The position numbers were made by a program, and so were the translations under genes. Under the pieces are notes generated by a model, which ran no database searches, was not told the origin of the DNA, and saw nothing but the letters and a program-made list of their open reading frames with translations. Positions 33,249 to 38,307 of a stretch of DNA of 41,503 nt are shown in pieces. Position 1 is the stretch's first letter. Every line of letters begins with the position of its first letter. Origin of the DNA: Clostridiaceae bacterium (lineage in GTDB: Bacteria; Bacillota; Clostridia; Acetivibrionales; DULL01); NCBI GenBank assembly GCA_012840395.1, contig DULL01000021.1:1-41503 (forward strand), in the 5' to 3' direction.

Positions 33249-33607
33249 GAACAGGATAGTACAACTGTTAATCGTACATCTAAGTGTGTCCTGCTAATTT
33301 TCACTATAACAAGAGTAATTGGGGAAGCACCCTAATGAAATTGATGATATAGATCATATAGATCAAAATATTATTGAATGACGGACCACAAGATTGACAA
33401 CAGAGCAGACAACAAAACGTACAACAAGCGGACAGCAAAAGGATGGATAAAATAAAGACAACAAGATTAACTACTGGATCGACAGTAAAACAGACAGAAT
33501 GAGAGACATAATGATGGACAAAATGCATAAAATTAATAGCACAACTAATTGTTGCTCCTGTTGTGCAAATAATTTTAAATTATTTGCACAACAGGAGCTT
33601 TCTTTTT
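33249..33607 (+). ncRNA. Candidate non-coding RNA or long leader with 12-base periodic repeats
   Basis: A stretch of about 360 bases runs from a consensus promoter to a very strong terminator, without a convincing gene. Near the 5' end CAGGA and TCCTG can close a stem around a GTAC/GTAC pair (about 33252-33298). From 33384 to 33528 GACA or GACC starts units close to 12 bases apart (33384, 33396, 33408, 33431, 33457, 33481, 33493, 33505, 33517). This section is A/C/G-rich, poor in T, and should be unpaired. GCACAAC at 33539-33545 could pair with the left arm of the terminator as an anti-terminator. Short frames inside (for example from ATG 33378, 25 codons) lack ribosome sites. No known RNA family was recognised. 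Confidence 0.5.
33554..33607 (+). terminator. Very strong intrinsic terminator
   Basis: The arms at 33554-33575 and 33577-33598 are perfect reverse complements of 22 bases around one central base, followed by CTTTCTTTTT. In practice the hairpin would be about 19 bp with a TTTTAAA loop. Confidence 0.9.
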
Positions 33608-33747: not shown

Positions 33748-34749
33748 ATGAAGTTGGTTTTTAACAAGATTTTTTTTAAAAAGATTATTCCTGCAGTTAT
33801 ATTAATTATTGCCATAACAGTTTCTGCGGCAGGAATGATAACGGGGTGTGCAGCCAGGGATAATCAAAAAGAAACAGGAACCAATATAGAGGATTCAACA
33901 GATAATTCATCGGAAAAACAAAATACTATTGAAAATAATGATAATGAACAAGATGATAAAGAAAATAAAATAATGGAAGAGTATAGGGGTTTGTTTTCAG
34001 GCAATTTTTCAATAAAGGAAATTGTAGAATTTATAGATAAAAATATTTCTCTTGTTTCGGATGAAAATGCAACTTTAATGGTTGATGAATTTGAGAAAAT
34101 GCAGAAAGAATACCTGTCTGAACTGGAAGAGAAATATAATAATGCTACAATACAAGAAGAGTTGGGCAAAAAATATTTATCTGATTTTGACATTAGTAAA
34201 ATAAACAAGATTGATGGCATTGAAAATGTTGGGTTAAGAGAGTTGTTAACTGAAACATTGGAAAGCGGGTATAAAGTAGAGACAGCAGAAGGGATGTTCT
34301 TTCCTGTCATAAACTATGAGTTTTATAAAAAATACAGTGATTATGTAACTTCCGACATCAAGGAATACATTGATATAATGGCGATTGAATCCAGTAATCC
34401 TCCTGCAAAGGATGCAGCTCTTGTAATTAGTTGGGAAGAAATACTGAACCGGGCATTAACCCAGGAGAAGTTCATAATCAAAAATGAAAGCTCAATAAGA
34501 ATTCAGGATATAAAAAACTTATATAATAAATATATGACATTTACCTTATTTGGCTTAAATAACACACCTTTGTTCACCTATGATACAAAGGCCATGGATC
34601 CTGAAGCAAAAGAAGTTTATTTAAGGGCAGTAGAAAAGGTAGAAGAAAGCAATTTCTTAAAAACATTAAAGGAGTATGTGGAATTACTAAAGAAGAATAA
34701 TTATAAGTTAACTGATGAAGTTGAACAGTTCAGGAAAGGTATTCTGTAG
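33748..34749 (+). CDS. Predicted lipoprotein of unknown function
   Basis: A 333-residue protein. It has a basic N-terminus, a hydrophobic core, and the lipobox ITGC with Cys34. An unstructured linker rich in Asp, Glu and Asn follows (about 38-75), then a mostly helical domain to the end. The linker suggests the domain is held away from the membrane. I recognise no family. GGAGAG precedes the ATG. It stands alone between two terminators, downstream of the candidate RNA and the LiaSR-like genes. It could be part of an envelope response, but that is only positional. Confidence 0.7.
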   Translation: MKLVFNKIFFKKIIPAVILIIAITVSAAGMITGCAARDNQKETGTNIEDSTDNSSEKQNTIENNDNEQDDKENKIMEEYRGLFSGNFSIKEIVEFIDKNISLVSDENATLMVDEFEKMQKEYLSELEEKYNNATIQEELGKKYLSDFDISKINKIDGIENVGLRELLTETLESGYKVETAEGMFFPVINYEFYKKYSDYVTSDIKEYIDIMAIESSNPPAKDAALVISWEEILNRALTQEKFIIKNESSIRIQDIKNLYNKYMTFTLFGLNNTPLFTYDTKAMDPEAKEVYLRAVEKVEESNFLKTLKEYVELLKKNNYKLTDEVEQFRKGIL

Positions 34750-34772
34750 AAAAAGAGAATTGGGATGAATGT

Positions 34773-34813
34773 AATAAGCCAGGTCTGGAATAATTGAACC
34801 AGCCTGGCTTATT
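34773..34813 (+). terminator. Terminator after the lipoprotein gene
   Basis: AATAAGCCAGG (34773-34783) pairs perfectly with CCTGGCTTATT (34803-34813). The tail is AT-rich but not a clean T-run. Confidence 0.75.
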
Positions 34814-34886
34814 ATAATTCGCAGAAGCAGTACAATAGCGGAAAAATAATATCAAAAACTGATAGTAAAAAATAATATCTAAAAAA

Positions 34887-34930
34887 TTCAACTAAAAAAA
34901 CTTGATTAAAATCAAGTTTTTTTAGTTGAA
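34887..34930. promoter_or_regulatory. 20-bp perfect palindrome containing a consensus FNR-type box
   Basis: The arms 34887-34906 and 34911-34930 are perfect reverse complements with a TAAA centre. At the heart lies TTGAT-TAAA-ATCAA (34902-34915), the full consensus for FNR-family regulators. The operon downstream encodes a Crp/Fnr protein with the FNR-type recognition residues Glu-x-x-Ser-Arg. A TATAAT at 34943-34948 would place the box centre near -46. The A-run and T-run in the arms also allow it to work as a bidirectional terminator; both roles can coexist. Confidence 0.72.
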
Positions 34931-34942
34931 AATAGGCTAACC

Positions 34943-34948
34943 TATAAT
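34943..34948 (+). promoter_or_regulatory. Predicted -10 of the metal operon promoter
   Basis: TATAAT lies 83 bases before the first HMA gene, with a weak -35 (about 34920-34925) next to the FNR-type box, as expected for a regulator-dependent promoter. Confidence 0.5.
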
Positions 34949-35030
34949 CAATAAGAGATACTAAGAATTAATAAAAGTAAATTAAAAAAGTTGAATTAAT
35001 AATTAATAAAGAAATAGGGAGTGAAAAAAC

Positions 35031-35252
35031 ATGGCAAGAGCAGAATTTCAGTTAGAACCTTTGACCTGTCCGTCCTGTGCTAAAAAAATTGAAACTGTTT
35101 TGAGTAATACAAAAGGAATTGAATCAGCAAAAGTATTATTTAGCTCAAGTAAGGTGAAAGCAGAATTTGATGAATCGCAGATTGATGTAGAACAAATAAA
35201 GAAAACAATAGATAACTTAGGTTTTGAAGTATTATCCTCAAAAATGTCCTGA
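35031..35252 (+). CDS. HMA-domain metal-binding protein 1
   Basis: A 73-residue single HMA domain with the metal-binding CPSC at residues 13-16 (TCPSCAKKIE). The usual Met before the first Cys (GMxCxxC) is absent. It probably acts as a soluble metal chaperone for the P-type ATPase encoded downstream, which has no HMA domain of its own. GGGAGTG precedes the ATG. A terminator-like hairpin stands between this gene and the next, so it may be made in excess. Confidence 0.82.
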   Translation: MARAEFQLEPLTCPSCAKKIETVLSNTKGIESAKVLFSSSKVKAEFDESQIDVEQIKKTIDNLGFEVLSSKMS

Positions 35253-35281
35253 TCAGTTTTTAGTTATTTTATTTGAGAGGT

Positions 35282-35339
35282 GGTTTAGAAGTTATCTTAC
35301 AAAGATTTTTCTTTCGGATAATTTCTGAACCTTTTTTTT
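35282..35339 (+). terminator. Intrinsic terminator between the two HMA genes
   Basis: The arms 35282-35296 (GGTTTAGAAGTTATC) and 35317-35331 (GATAATTTCTGAACC) pair over 15 bases with two G-U pairs, followed by eight T at 35332-35339. Partial termination here would set the ratio between the small chaperone and the rest of the operon. Confidence 0.75.
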
Positions 35340-35400
35340 AATCAATGTTATTTTCTATAAATAATTATGATTATTTTTAAAAGCTTCGGAGGAATAAACA

Positions 35401-35658
35401 ATGCGAAAGATATTATTTGTATTAGAGCAGTTAGAATGCCCCAGCTGTTATAAAAGGATAGAAGATTGTCTTGGTAAACAAAGCGGTATTATTTCAGTAA
35501 CAGTATTACCTGCTCTTGGCAGAATAAGAACGGAATATGATGAAACAGAAATAAACGAAGAACAACTGGAAAGTCTTATATATAATTTGGGATATGTAAT
35601 AGAAGCTAAGAAAAAGCTTGAAAATGGAGAATTAAGGGTTTTAAAGCGTGAGAGTTAA
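35401..35658 (+). CDS. HMA-domain metal-binding protein 2
   Basis: An 85-residue HMA domain with CPSC at residues 13-16 (ECPSCYKRIE) and a short basic tail. It is clearly paralogous to the first HMA protein, but diverged in the loop after the motif (Tyr for Ala). It lies 95 bp before the ATPase gene. GGAGG precedes the ATG. A likely metal donor or regulator of the ATPase. The metal cannot be told. Confidence 0.82.
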   Translation: MRKILFVLEQLECPSCYKRIEDCLGKQSGIISVTVLPALGRIRTEYDETEINEEQLESLIYNLGYVIEAKKKLENGELRVLKRES

Positions 35659-35753
35659 AAGTCAGAGGAGAATTAAGGATAGAATTACGGTGTAAGAAAT
35701 AATAAGCAGGAGATCAAAACTGTAAGCTGAATTATAAAAGGATGTGATATAAA

Positions 35754-37652
35754 ATGTTAAAATATATTAATAAACATAAAAATCATATTACTTTATTTTC
35801 AGGAATATTCATTGCTGCAGGTTTTGCGCTTTCCTTTACAGGTAATATATATTTGAAAGATATTTTTTTAATAATAGCAACAATAGCTGCCGGAACACCT
35901 ATTGCAATAAAAGCCTTCCAGGCCCTTCGCATGAGGGCATTCAGCATTGAGTTATTGGTAACTATAGCAGTAATCGGGGCTTTGTATCTTCGTGAGTATA
36001 CCGAGTCTTCCGTAGTAGGTTTTCTCTTTTTGTTCGGAGATTATCTTGAAGCCCGCACGCTGGAAAAAACGCGTTCTTCGCTTAAAACATTAATAGATAT
36101 GGCTCCGCAGGAAGCAATAGTTATTCGAGAAGGTCAAACAATAACTATTCCTGTTGAAGAAGTAGTAAAAGGTGATAGGGTAATTATCAAAGCAGGCGGA
36201 AAGGTACCTGTGGATGGTAAAATAGTATCGGGTAGGGCTTTATTGAATGAAGCCGCTGTTACAGGCGAATCTGTGCCTGTTTCAAAAAGTGTTGATGATA
36301 AAGTTTTTAGTGGTACAATTGTAGATAACGGTTATATAGAAATTATCGCTGAAAAAGTTGGGGATGACACTACTTTTGCCAGAATAATTGAACTTGTGGA
36401 AGAAGCACAGGAATCTAAAACAAAAACTGAAAAATTCCTGGATAAATTTGCAAATATCTATACACCGTCGATTGTTGTATTGTCAATCCTGGTATATATT
36501 ATTACGAGAAATCTCCATATTGCAATTACTTTTCTTGTGGTTGCCTGCCCTGGCGCCCTGGTAATAGGTGCTCCTGTATCTAATGTGGCTGGAATAGGAA
36601 ATGGCGCAAGAAATGGTGTTCTAATTAAGGGCGGGGAAGTTATGGACAGATTATCCAGGGTTACTGCAGTTGTATTTGATAAAACCGGTACTTTAACAAA
36701 AGGAAAGCCTGAAGTTACTGAAATAAAAGTTTTTAATAATATGAATGGAATTAGTATAGACCCAAATGAGTTGTTAAGGTTGGCTGCTGAAGTTGAAACA
36801 ATTTCTGAACATCATTTAGGCCATACAATTGTTAAAGAAGCAGAGGCAAGGAATTTAAACATCAAAGGTGAAGTGACGGAGGGGGAAATAATTAAGGGTA
36901 ATGGTATTCGTGGAAAAGTCGGCAGCCATGTTATAACTATTGGAAACCGGAAGATGATGAATACTGAAAAAATAGCCATTCCGGATGAAGTGTCAGATTA
37001 TGCGGTAAAGCAGGAGAAAGTAGGTAATACTGCAATATTTACAGCCATAGACGGAAAGGTTGCAGGAATAATATCAATAGCCGACCAAATCCGGGAAGAT
37101 GCCAATTTAGCTTTGTCAGAATTGAGGAGAAACGGTGTTAAAAGAATTATCATGCTCACAGGAGATAACAGGCACACTGCTGAACTAGTTGCAAAACAAC
37201 TTGGCTTATATGAATTCCATGCAGAATTATTGCCTGAAGATAAAGTGGAGTTTATAAAGGAATTGAAGAAAGAAGGGCATGTAGTGGCAATGGCGGGAGA
37301 TGGAATAAATGATGCTCCTGCAATTGCTACAGCTGATATAGGTCTGGCCATGGGTGAAGGGGGTACGGATGTATCAATGGAGACTGCCGATGTAGTACTT
37401 ATGGCCGATAAATTAATACAATTTTCCCATGCGTACTCTCTTTCAAAAGCTACCATAAGAAACATGAAACAGAATACATTTTTTGCCGTGGCAATTGTAT
37501 TTATACTGCTGGCGGGAGTATTATCAGAGAATGTCCACCTGGCGTCAGGTATGTTTATTCACGAAGCCAGTGTATTGGCGGTAATACTGAATGCCATGCG
37601 GTTAATAGGATTTAACAGCAAGGGCAGAAAGGGGAGGAATACAGTTGCATAA
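35754..37652 (+). CDS. P1B-like heavy-metal P-type ATPase with CPG and HH variants
   Basis: A 632-residue membrane metal pump without an N-terminal HMA domain. It has about eight helices, the actuator motif TGES, the phosphorylated Asp309 in DKTGTLTKG, and the hinge GDGINDAPAIA. Two P1B hallmarks differ. The membrane metal site, normally CPC, reads CPG (Cys265-Gly267), and the nucleotide-domain HP of SEHPL reads SEHHLGH (His353-His354). Both changes suggest a distinct subfamily whose metal may not be Cd/Zn/Cu as automatic annotation would say. It is preceded by two free HMA proteins and overlaps the Crp/Fnr gene by eight bases. Confidence 0.85.
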   Translation: MLKYINKHKNHITLFSGIFIAAGFALSFTGNIYLKDIFLIIATIAAGTPIAIKAFQALRMRAFSIELLVTIAVIGALYLREYTESSVVGFLFLFGDYLEARTLEKTRSSLKTLIDMAPQEAIVIREGQTITIPVEEVVKGDRVIIKAGGKVPVDGKIVSGRALLNEAAVTGESVPVSKSVDDKVFSGTIVDNGYIEIIAEKVGDDTTFARIIELVEEAQESKTKTEKFLDKFANIYTPSIVVLSILVYIITRNLHIAITFLVVACPGALVIGAPVSNVAGIGNGARNGVLIKGGEVMDRLSRVTAVVFDKTGTLTKGKPEVTEIKVFNNMNGISIDPNELLRLAAEVETISEHHLGHTIVKEAEARNLNIKGEVTEGEIIKGNGIRGKVGSHVITIGNRKMMNTEKIAIPDEVSDYAVKQEKVGNTAIFTAIDGKVAGIISIADQIREDANLALSELRRNGVKRIIMLTGDNRHTAELVAKQLGLYEFHAELLPEDKVEFIKELKKEGHVVAMAGDGINDAPAIATADIGLAMGEGGTDVSMETADVVLMADKLIQFSHAYSLSKATIRNMKQNTFFAVAIVFILLAGVLSENVHLASGMFIHEASVLAVILNAMRLIGFNSKGRKGRNTVA

Positions 37653-38307
37653 ATCATGTATAACTCTGGTACCAATATTTAACCATTTGGAAGCTGAACA
37701 AATGGATGAGATTATGAAAACGGTAAAATCACGCTCCTTTAAAAGAGGAGAACTGATTTATAGGGCCGGGGATCATTCAGATTCACTTTATATAGTAAAC
37801 AGTGGAAAAATAAAGATTTACCGCCTCTCTGAATCAGGAAAGGAACAATTAGTACGTATTCTTAATCCGGGGGATTTTACGGGAGAATTGGCTTTGTTTA
37901 GTCAATCGGTTCATGAATCATATGCAGAAGCTATGGAGGACACCAAGATATGTATTATTACCCGTTCTGACTTGCAGGAATTTTTAATGAAATATCCCTC
38001 TATTTCATTGAAATTTCTTGCCGAATTTTCCAGGAGACTTGAAAAATCGGAAAAACAAACAGCCAGAGTTTCTACTGAAAAGGTTGAAACCCGGTTGGCT
38101 CTTTTTTTGGCTGAATGTGTTACCAGCAGTGAAGGTCCGATGGAATTTGTATTGCCAATGAGCAGAAAAGATCTTGCTTCTTATCTGGGTACCACTCCCG
38201 AAACTATAAGCAGGAAACTGGCTGAATTTGAGGACGCAGGATATATCAAACAAAAAAAAGGCAGGAAAATTGAAATTTTAGATTTAGACGGAATGTTGCT
38301 TGTTTAA
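37645..38307 (+). CDS. Crp/Fnr family regulator (Flp/FNR-like)
   Basis: A 220-residue regulator. It has an N-terminal cyclic-nucleotide-binding-like barrel (about 15-130), a long dimer helix, and a C-terminal winged helix with MSRKDLASYLGTTPETISRK. Glu186, Ser189 and Arg190 match the FNR recognition helix, which reads TTGAT-N4-ATCAA; exactly such a site lies upstream of this operon. There is no N-terminal four-Cys cluster as in E. coli FNR; a lone Cys5 is present. It starts at TTG with GGGGAGG upstream, overlapping the ATPase gene. The arrangement recalls the Lactococcus flp operons, where an FNR-like protein follows metal-transport genes. Confidence 0.87.
   Translation: MHKSCITLVPIFNHLEAEQMDEIMKTVKSRSFKRGELIYRAGDHSDSLYIVNSGKIKIYRLSESGKEQLVRILNPGDFTGELALFSQSVHESYAEAMEDTKICIITRSDLQEFLMKYPSISLKFLAEFSRRLEKSEKQTARVSTEKVETRLALFLAECVTSSEGPMEFVLPMSRKDLASYLGTTPETISRKLAEFEDAGYIKQKKGRKIEILDLDGMLLV

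Follow-up and report, generated by a model that had tools for sequence, protein, structure and literature searches.

Analysis of a 41,503-nucleotide stretch of a Clostridiaceae bacterium genome (assembly GCA_012840395.1, contig DULL01000021.1, positions 1 to 41,503; hereafter the window) revealed an operon that probably serves metal homeostasis under its own FLP-type regulator, a redox-switched activator that would govern export of a borderline metal. Computation established an FNR-type box in front of the operon, a matching recognition helix in the regulator encoded by its last gene, their co-conservation, and a class II promoter spacing in relatives. In the proposed mechanism, the terminal Crp/Fnr protein would dimerize and bind the TTGAT-N4-ATCAA box before the first gene, and the bound regulator would control two small heavy-metal-associated domain (HMA) proteins, a P1B-type pump with an unusual metal site (CPG and HEAS motifs), and its own gene. 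The regulator would activate transcription, with the thiols of C5 and C103, and not an Fe-S cluster, responding to O2, peroxide, or NO. Under redox stress, in which free metal becomes dangerous, the pump would export a borderline metal, Fe(II) being the likeliest and Zn(II) the second choice.

Operon structure and putative operator

The operon lies on the plus strand and comprises the free-standing HMA domain protein HMA1 (35031-35252; TCPSC; Pfam HMA, 5.2e-15), a second free HMA protein, HMA2 (35401-35658; ECPSC; Pfam HMA, 6.7e-6), a P1B-type metal ATPase (35754-37652; TIGR01525, 3.5e-173), and the FLP-type Crp/Fnr regulator (37645-38307; Pfam PF00027, PF13545, and PF00325 above cut-off), the gene for which overlaps the ATPase stop codon and begins with a TTG start preceded by a GGGAGGAA ribosome site. 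This confirmed the gene order given by an earlier reading made without database searches (the sequence-only reading), with two free HMA proteins and a P-type ATPase between the box and a terminal Crp/Fnr gene.

The putative operator TTGATTAAAATCAA (34902-34915, no strand assigned) is an exact match to TTGAT-N4-ATCAA, the site type of FNR from Escherichia coli and Aliivibrio fischeri; the FNR consensus that had been claimed within the palindrome at 34887-34930 was therefore present, and it is kept in orthologous operons. This was the single exact occurrence within the window, situated at the center of the palindrome, and the number of boxes with at most one mismatch in the window was at chance level (five versus 5.5 expected), so that the box by itself is weak evidence. 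Genome-wide, seven exact boxes were identified in 2.84 Mb, six of them inside coding frames and for that reason rejected as further regulon members, which leaves the box at 34902-34915 as the sole intergenic exact box of the genome. It is thus distinguished by its exactness, its position ahead of the operon, and its sole intergenic status. No alternative HMA1 operator with at most three mismatches and a 22-bp spacing was found in 34750-35760.

Co-occurrence of the box with the regulator and the pump

The association between box, regulator, and pump was evaluated in two sets of loci chosen from opposite ends of the operon. The regulator-led set contained 43 non-duplicate loci drawn from a first group of 21 loci, the 48 of 391 class genomes with a match, and ten plasmid stretches fetched from 422 plasmids carrying a regulator homologue, many of them conjugative (L060 and L065, which duplicate L007 and L013, were dropped from the counts). 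Boxes with at most one mismatch were found in 22 of the 26 loci with a linked regulator and pump or HMA gene, giving 50 sites compared to 3.15 (standard deviation 1.6) in 60 dinucleotide shuffles, and the exact boxes in these 26 loci numbered 13 versus 0.1 expected; the counts are not independent events, because several plasmid loci are near-identical. The four loci scored as lacking a box were L006 and L015 (both cut before the leader), L068, and L075; the last does have a box, 70 bp ahead of a RIC-like gene and slightly beyond the part that was counted. FetAB and VIT genes near some of the plasmid clusters had no intergenic box ahead of either. On an Enterococcus faecium plasmid (L082, position 5376) the boxed gene encodes an OsmC-type peroxide protein and not a pump.

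The pump-led set was picked independently of the regulator from the 64 of 398 phylum genomes with a strong pump match, and the best 30 loci were examined. All 29 foreign loci among these 30 encode CPGAL pumps, and an intergenic box was present within the fetched flank in 23 of the 29 (six exact) compared to one of 15 loci with CPC pumps (Fisher p 4e-6), the controls deriving from the genome of the window and related genomes (14 show CPCAL, while L105 has neither motif in the called frame). A regulator homologue was encoded within approximately 1.5 kb in 14 of the 29 CPG loci. The pump was also sought in trans in eight genomes of the regulator-led set, yielding five matches of 48-51% on a contig other than that of the regulator. 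Four of these are CPGALVIG pumps, of which three have an exact box before an HMA or RIC-like gene and the fourth is on a contig that ends just upstream of the pump; the fifth (genome G109) has CPGALVIST and no box, and the same genome carries an exact box before an HMA gene near its regulator (L061). A Paracoccus pump turned out to belong to the CPC type and to lack a box. The sequence-only reading had named the absence of the box from orthologous operons as the observation that would count against it, and the proportions above (22/26 linked loci and 23/29 CPG pump loci) point the other way; its main proposition, that the regulator encoded in the operon matches the FNR-type box, is supported by this comparative association together with the promoter geometry described below.

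Promoter geometry in the family

Of 70 boxes in a hand-made list, 59 have a -10 hexamer (at least 4/6 matches, with A2 and T6; offsets 5 to 59 scanned) that begins exactly 22 bp downstream, compared to zero to seven boxes at each remaining offset except for shadows at 17 and 27 (14 and 15 boxes, respectively). The list left out the near-identical L054/L081 copies, further copies in L080 (5882, 6762), L055 (5094), and L125, the boxes L078 3073, L064 4536, L066 6261, L073 4823, and L147 3892, and all boxes that were in frame or not ahead of a cluster gene. An automated count over 79 loci and both strands gave the 22-bp spacing in 65 of 93 intergenic versus four of 51 in-frame boxes. This spacing puts the box center 29.5 bp from the -10 element, which corresponds to the class II position from which FNR activates in E. 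coli, centered at -41.5 and approximately 29.5 bp before the -10. The geometry in relatives ties the box to transcription and indicates that the regulator is probably an activator in this family.

The pump and its predicted metal

The pump carries C265-P-G in transmembrane helix (TM) 4 (36546-36554, reading CPGALVIG) and H603-E-A-S in TM6 (37560-37571). Alignment to solved pumps placed CPG at their SPC/CPC site and HEAS against HEGST of the PIB-4 pump sCoaT (7qbz), not against the ZntA aspartate. The PIB-4 site is defined by SPC plus HEGxT, as outlined in PMC8880997, and PIB-4 pumps include Fe(II) exporters (PMC7762939). The window pump shares with PIB-4 ATPases (sCoaT and the Fe(II) exporters PfeT and FrvA) the TM6 His-Glu pair, the remainder of that motif being changed, but it has CPG where they have SPC, and its HMA domains are separate proteins. 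To ZntA (PIB-2) and CopA (PIB-1) it is similar in overall P1B fold and score, but it lacks both their TM4 CPC and, in the alignment, the ZntA-like M5 lysine and M6 aspartate. The boxed genes of relatives encode RIC/ScdA, a RIC-like protein of 100 amino acids, Dps, OsmC, HMA proteins, the pump, and sometimes the regulator, among which RIC, Dps, and OsmC point to a probable role in oxidative or nitrosative and iron stress. Because of these boxed partners and the alignment of HEAS with PIB-4, Fe(II) or another borderline metal is favored, and we infer that such a metal would be the cargo under oxidative or nitrosative stress.

The alternative that survives best holds that the pump moves copper or zinc instead of iron, in an ordinary soft-metal resistance operon that came by chance to lie among oxidative-stress genes. 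It retains considerable plausibility, somewhat below an even chance, from the CxxC site of the free CopZ-like HMA proteins, the TM4 cysteine, and CopA as the top-scoring solved structures, although TM4 reads CPG and not CPC, HEAS was aligned to HEGST of sCoaT and not to the D-T-G of ZntA, the boxed partners include Dps and RIC, and Fe(II) exporters are known among PIB-4 pumps (summarized in PMC7762939).

Two pump subclades (GAPVSN and GVPVSN) were present in L011, L012, and L056, where the regulator is 73-76% identical to that of the window and the pump only 46-47%; pump subclades under one regulator suggest modular exchange. A protein of 96-105 amino acids is encoded between the box and the CPG pump in many genomes (L011 6843-7145, L118 2961-3278, and similar), and its weak RIC matches (TIGR03652, far below cut-off) suggest a short RIC relative that lacks its own family.

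The regulator and its predicted sensing cysteines

The regulator consists of a cyclic nucleotide monophosphate (cNMP)-binding-like sensor domain and a Crp helix-turn-helix (HTH), both above the Pfam cut-off. Its recognition helix TPETISRK contains E186, S189, and R190, the residues named in the sequence-only reading, none of which varies across the 41 aligned homologues (the alignment leaves aside the duplicates L060 and L065, and L015 and L081 with broken regulator frames). Identity with the regulator of the closest relatives is 63-80% and with plasmid-borne ones 38-59%. Above the family cut-off, the genome encodes just two proteins with a Crp-type HTH, and the second (contig C109) was rejected as a reader of the box since its helix NVSRPSMSREM has no ETISR. 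A phage-defense function was likewise set aside, as PADLOC gave weak cNMP-domain/HTH matches for the regulator and none for the pump or HMA1.

The protein has only three cysteines, C5, C103, and C158, and so does not possess the full cluster set of FNR; the absence of the FNR iron-sulfur cysteines had been recognized from the sequence, while the invariance of C5 and C103 in all 41 homologues, down to 39% identity, had gone unnoticed. C158 is present in 21 of 22 close homologues. In Lactobacillus casei FLP, Cys5 and Cys102 form a disulfide. A [4Fe-4S] FNR has four cluster cysteines and an FLP two conserved ones, N-terminal and near residue 102, a pair represented here by C5 and C103. Such a two-cysteine type has been described for Gram-positive FNR-like proteins (PMC5039431). 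With two conserved cysteines rather than four, the regulator is by its predicted sequence of the FLP type rather than a [4Fe-4S] FNR.

In the window protein, C5 is preceded by four residues, and the frame contains no ATG, GTG, or TTG farther upstream than the assigned start; in each of the other 21 close homologues the segment ahead of the invariant Cys is longer, and it is mostly His/Cys-rich. This raises the alternative that the homologues sense via a metal or Fe-S cluster in their N-terminal extension, and that the window protein, lacking it, is constitutive or differently tuned. This is unlikely, as neither the position nor the residues of the extension are conserved, unlike C5 and C103, and the start codons of the homologues were called mechanically.

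The palindrome and promoter of the window

Several observations weigh against a self-controlled, redox-switched activator operon. The perfect palindrome that encloses the box (34887-34930, no strand assigned; 20 pairs and a 4-nt loop) is atypical, as the other fetched exact boxes have five to eight pairs with the exception of a 17-pair hairpin-like box in a Bacteroidota locus (L020). The window promoter is off-pattern: its perfect -10 hexamer TATAAT (34943-34948, plus strand) is separated from the box by 27 bp, which puts it half a helical turn out of register, and only TAACCT (34938-34943, plus strand; 3/6 matches) occupies the family position at 22 bp, so the window is one of 11 exceptions among the 70 boxes and lacks the class II spacing. 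An intact second box before HMA2 in close relatives (L003, L008, and L127) is reduced in the window to TTTTTTTTAATCAA (35332-35345, plus strand), with two mismatches and 20 bp before TATGAT. Regulator loci without a linked pump showed no box excess (two sites in 17 loci versus 0.9 expected), the HMA1 and ATPase leaders of L004 had no box at one mismatch, and six of the 29 CPG loci had none with at most one mismatch (L128, at a contig end, L130, L140, L148, L152, and L153). The CopZ-like HMA proteins favor a softer metal, and both the signal and the metal are presumed from gene context.

The palindrome could be mainly an RNA hairpin or bidirectional terminator, with an A-tract, stem, and T-tract, that holds the FNR consensus by chance. 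The 20-pair stem folds as RNA at -22.3 kcal/mol, A7 and T7 tracts flank the core, a terminator-like prediction was obtained on the minus strand, the spacing between box and -10 departs from the family, and a comparable 17-pair hairpin box occurs in the unrelated Bacteroidota locus. Long hairpins also arise for other reasons, given six perfect ones of at least 12 pairs, including the palindrome, in 87.6 kb of genome sequence; the chance probability of 15 extra pairs, the box being given, is approximately 1e-8 per site. We nevertheless consider the hairpin explanation quite unlikely, as the 6-pair core stem reaches only -3.2 kcal/mol with the T-tract itself paired within the stem, orthologous operons keep the box without the long arms, and the box is the only exact intergenic one in the genome. 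In addition, the upstream gene already has a strong hairpin, a probable G+C-rich terminator (34773-34816, plus strand; fold -22.4 kcal/mol) after the lipoprotein-like open reading frame 33748-34749. The palindrome was also rejected as a dispersed repeat: its 66-bp region has no other match in the genome, and AAACTTGAT-N4-ATCAAGTTT occurs exactly once.

Weakest is the idea that the regulator acts in this strain as a repressor, bound to the palindrome near TATAAT so as to block RNA polymerase until metal or oxidant releases it and the pump is induced, which the perfect TATAAT and a 27-bp spacing that is not class II would fit, but which is improbable considering the poor -35 region of that hexamer, the activator spacing in 59/70 boxes of relatives, and a regulator 63-80% identical to those of the closest of them. 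Under the preferred reading of a redox-switched activator, the spacing in the window could mean weaker activation, use of TAACCT, or some repression; either the degenerate TAACCT is in use or the regulator acts differently there.

Two further elements were observed in the vicinity. The half-degenerate box with TATGAT at 35332-35371 looks like a decayed second FLP promoter, and a second long perfect hairpin (33554-33598; 21 pairs, 3-nt loop) followed by TTTCTTTT lies between a response regulator and the lipoprotein-like gene and is probably a terminator.

Relation to known systems and implications

The kind of system is already known, since FlpA is listed among the metal-homeostasis regulons of lactic acid bacteria in a published reconstruction (outlined in PMC3616900). 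In outline, the likeness to Flp of Lactococcus lactis drawn in the sequence-only reading holds, on account of that regulon (PMC3616900) and of Lactococcus plasmids with an ATPase-HMA-Dps-Crp/Fnr order and exact boxes. The FLP proteins of lactic acid bacteria (L. casei FLP; L. lactis FlpA and FlpB) share the FNR-type recognition helix, two conserved cysteines, and the link to metal homeostasis (the FlpA regulon of PMC3616900), whereas the window regulator is tied to a CPG-type P1B ATPase and free HMA proteins (a comparison that left out the chromosomal L. lactis flp operons). FNR of E. coli and A. fischeri (5e44) has the same fold and ETISR helix, and C103 aligns with one of its cysteines, but the window regulator lacks the four cluster cysteines. 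Similar in content are plasmid clusters of Enterococcus, Listeria, Leuconostoc, and Lactococcus with the same regulator family, boxes, HMA proteins, and CPG pump, which differ in carrying Dps and in a regulator only 38-59% identical. In the titles and abstracts shown by a search of the open-access literature, no description of the regulon or the CPG subgroup was found, nor any prior description of the CPG pump, the strict box-promoter spacing, RIC and Dps as targets, or the clostridial spread.

The recurrence of regulator, box, and pump together in many related bacteria, as well as on plasmids of lactic acid bacteria, suggests a genuine stress-linked switch. More tentatively, and with considerable doubt, the operon may exemplify a widespread redox-to-metal circuit across Bacillota and plasmids, in which a two-cysteine FLP switch would drive class II promoters of an unnamed Fe(II)-exporting P1B subgroup (CPG/HEAS), to which free HMA proteins would deliver the metal, and of RIC and Dps as well; under O2, peroxide, or NO stress, labile iron would thereby be removed, stored, or repaired. 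FLP regulators have been known for decades and, to our knowledge, have few certain targets. The box at its fixed 22 bp from the -10 element, present in many Bacillota and in plasmids of Enterococcus, Listeria, Leuconostoc, and Lactococcus ahead of genes for the pump, HMA proteins, RIC, and Dps, offers a concrete, testable set of such targets. It also opens a route to identifying which metal is moved by the pumps with CPG in TM4, a motif that matches none of those considered for P1B pumps.

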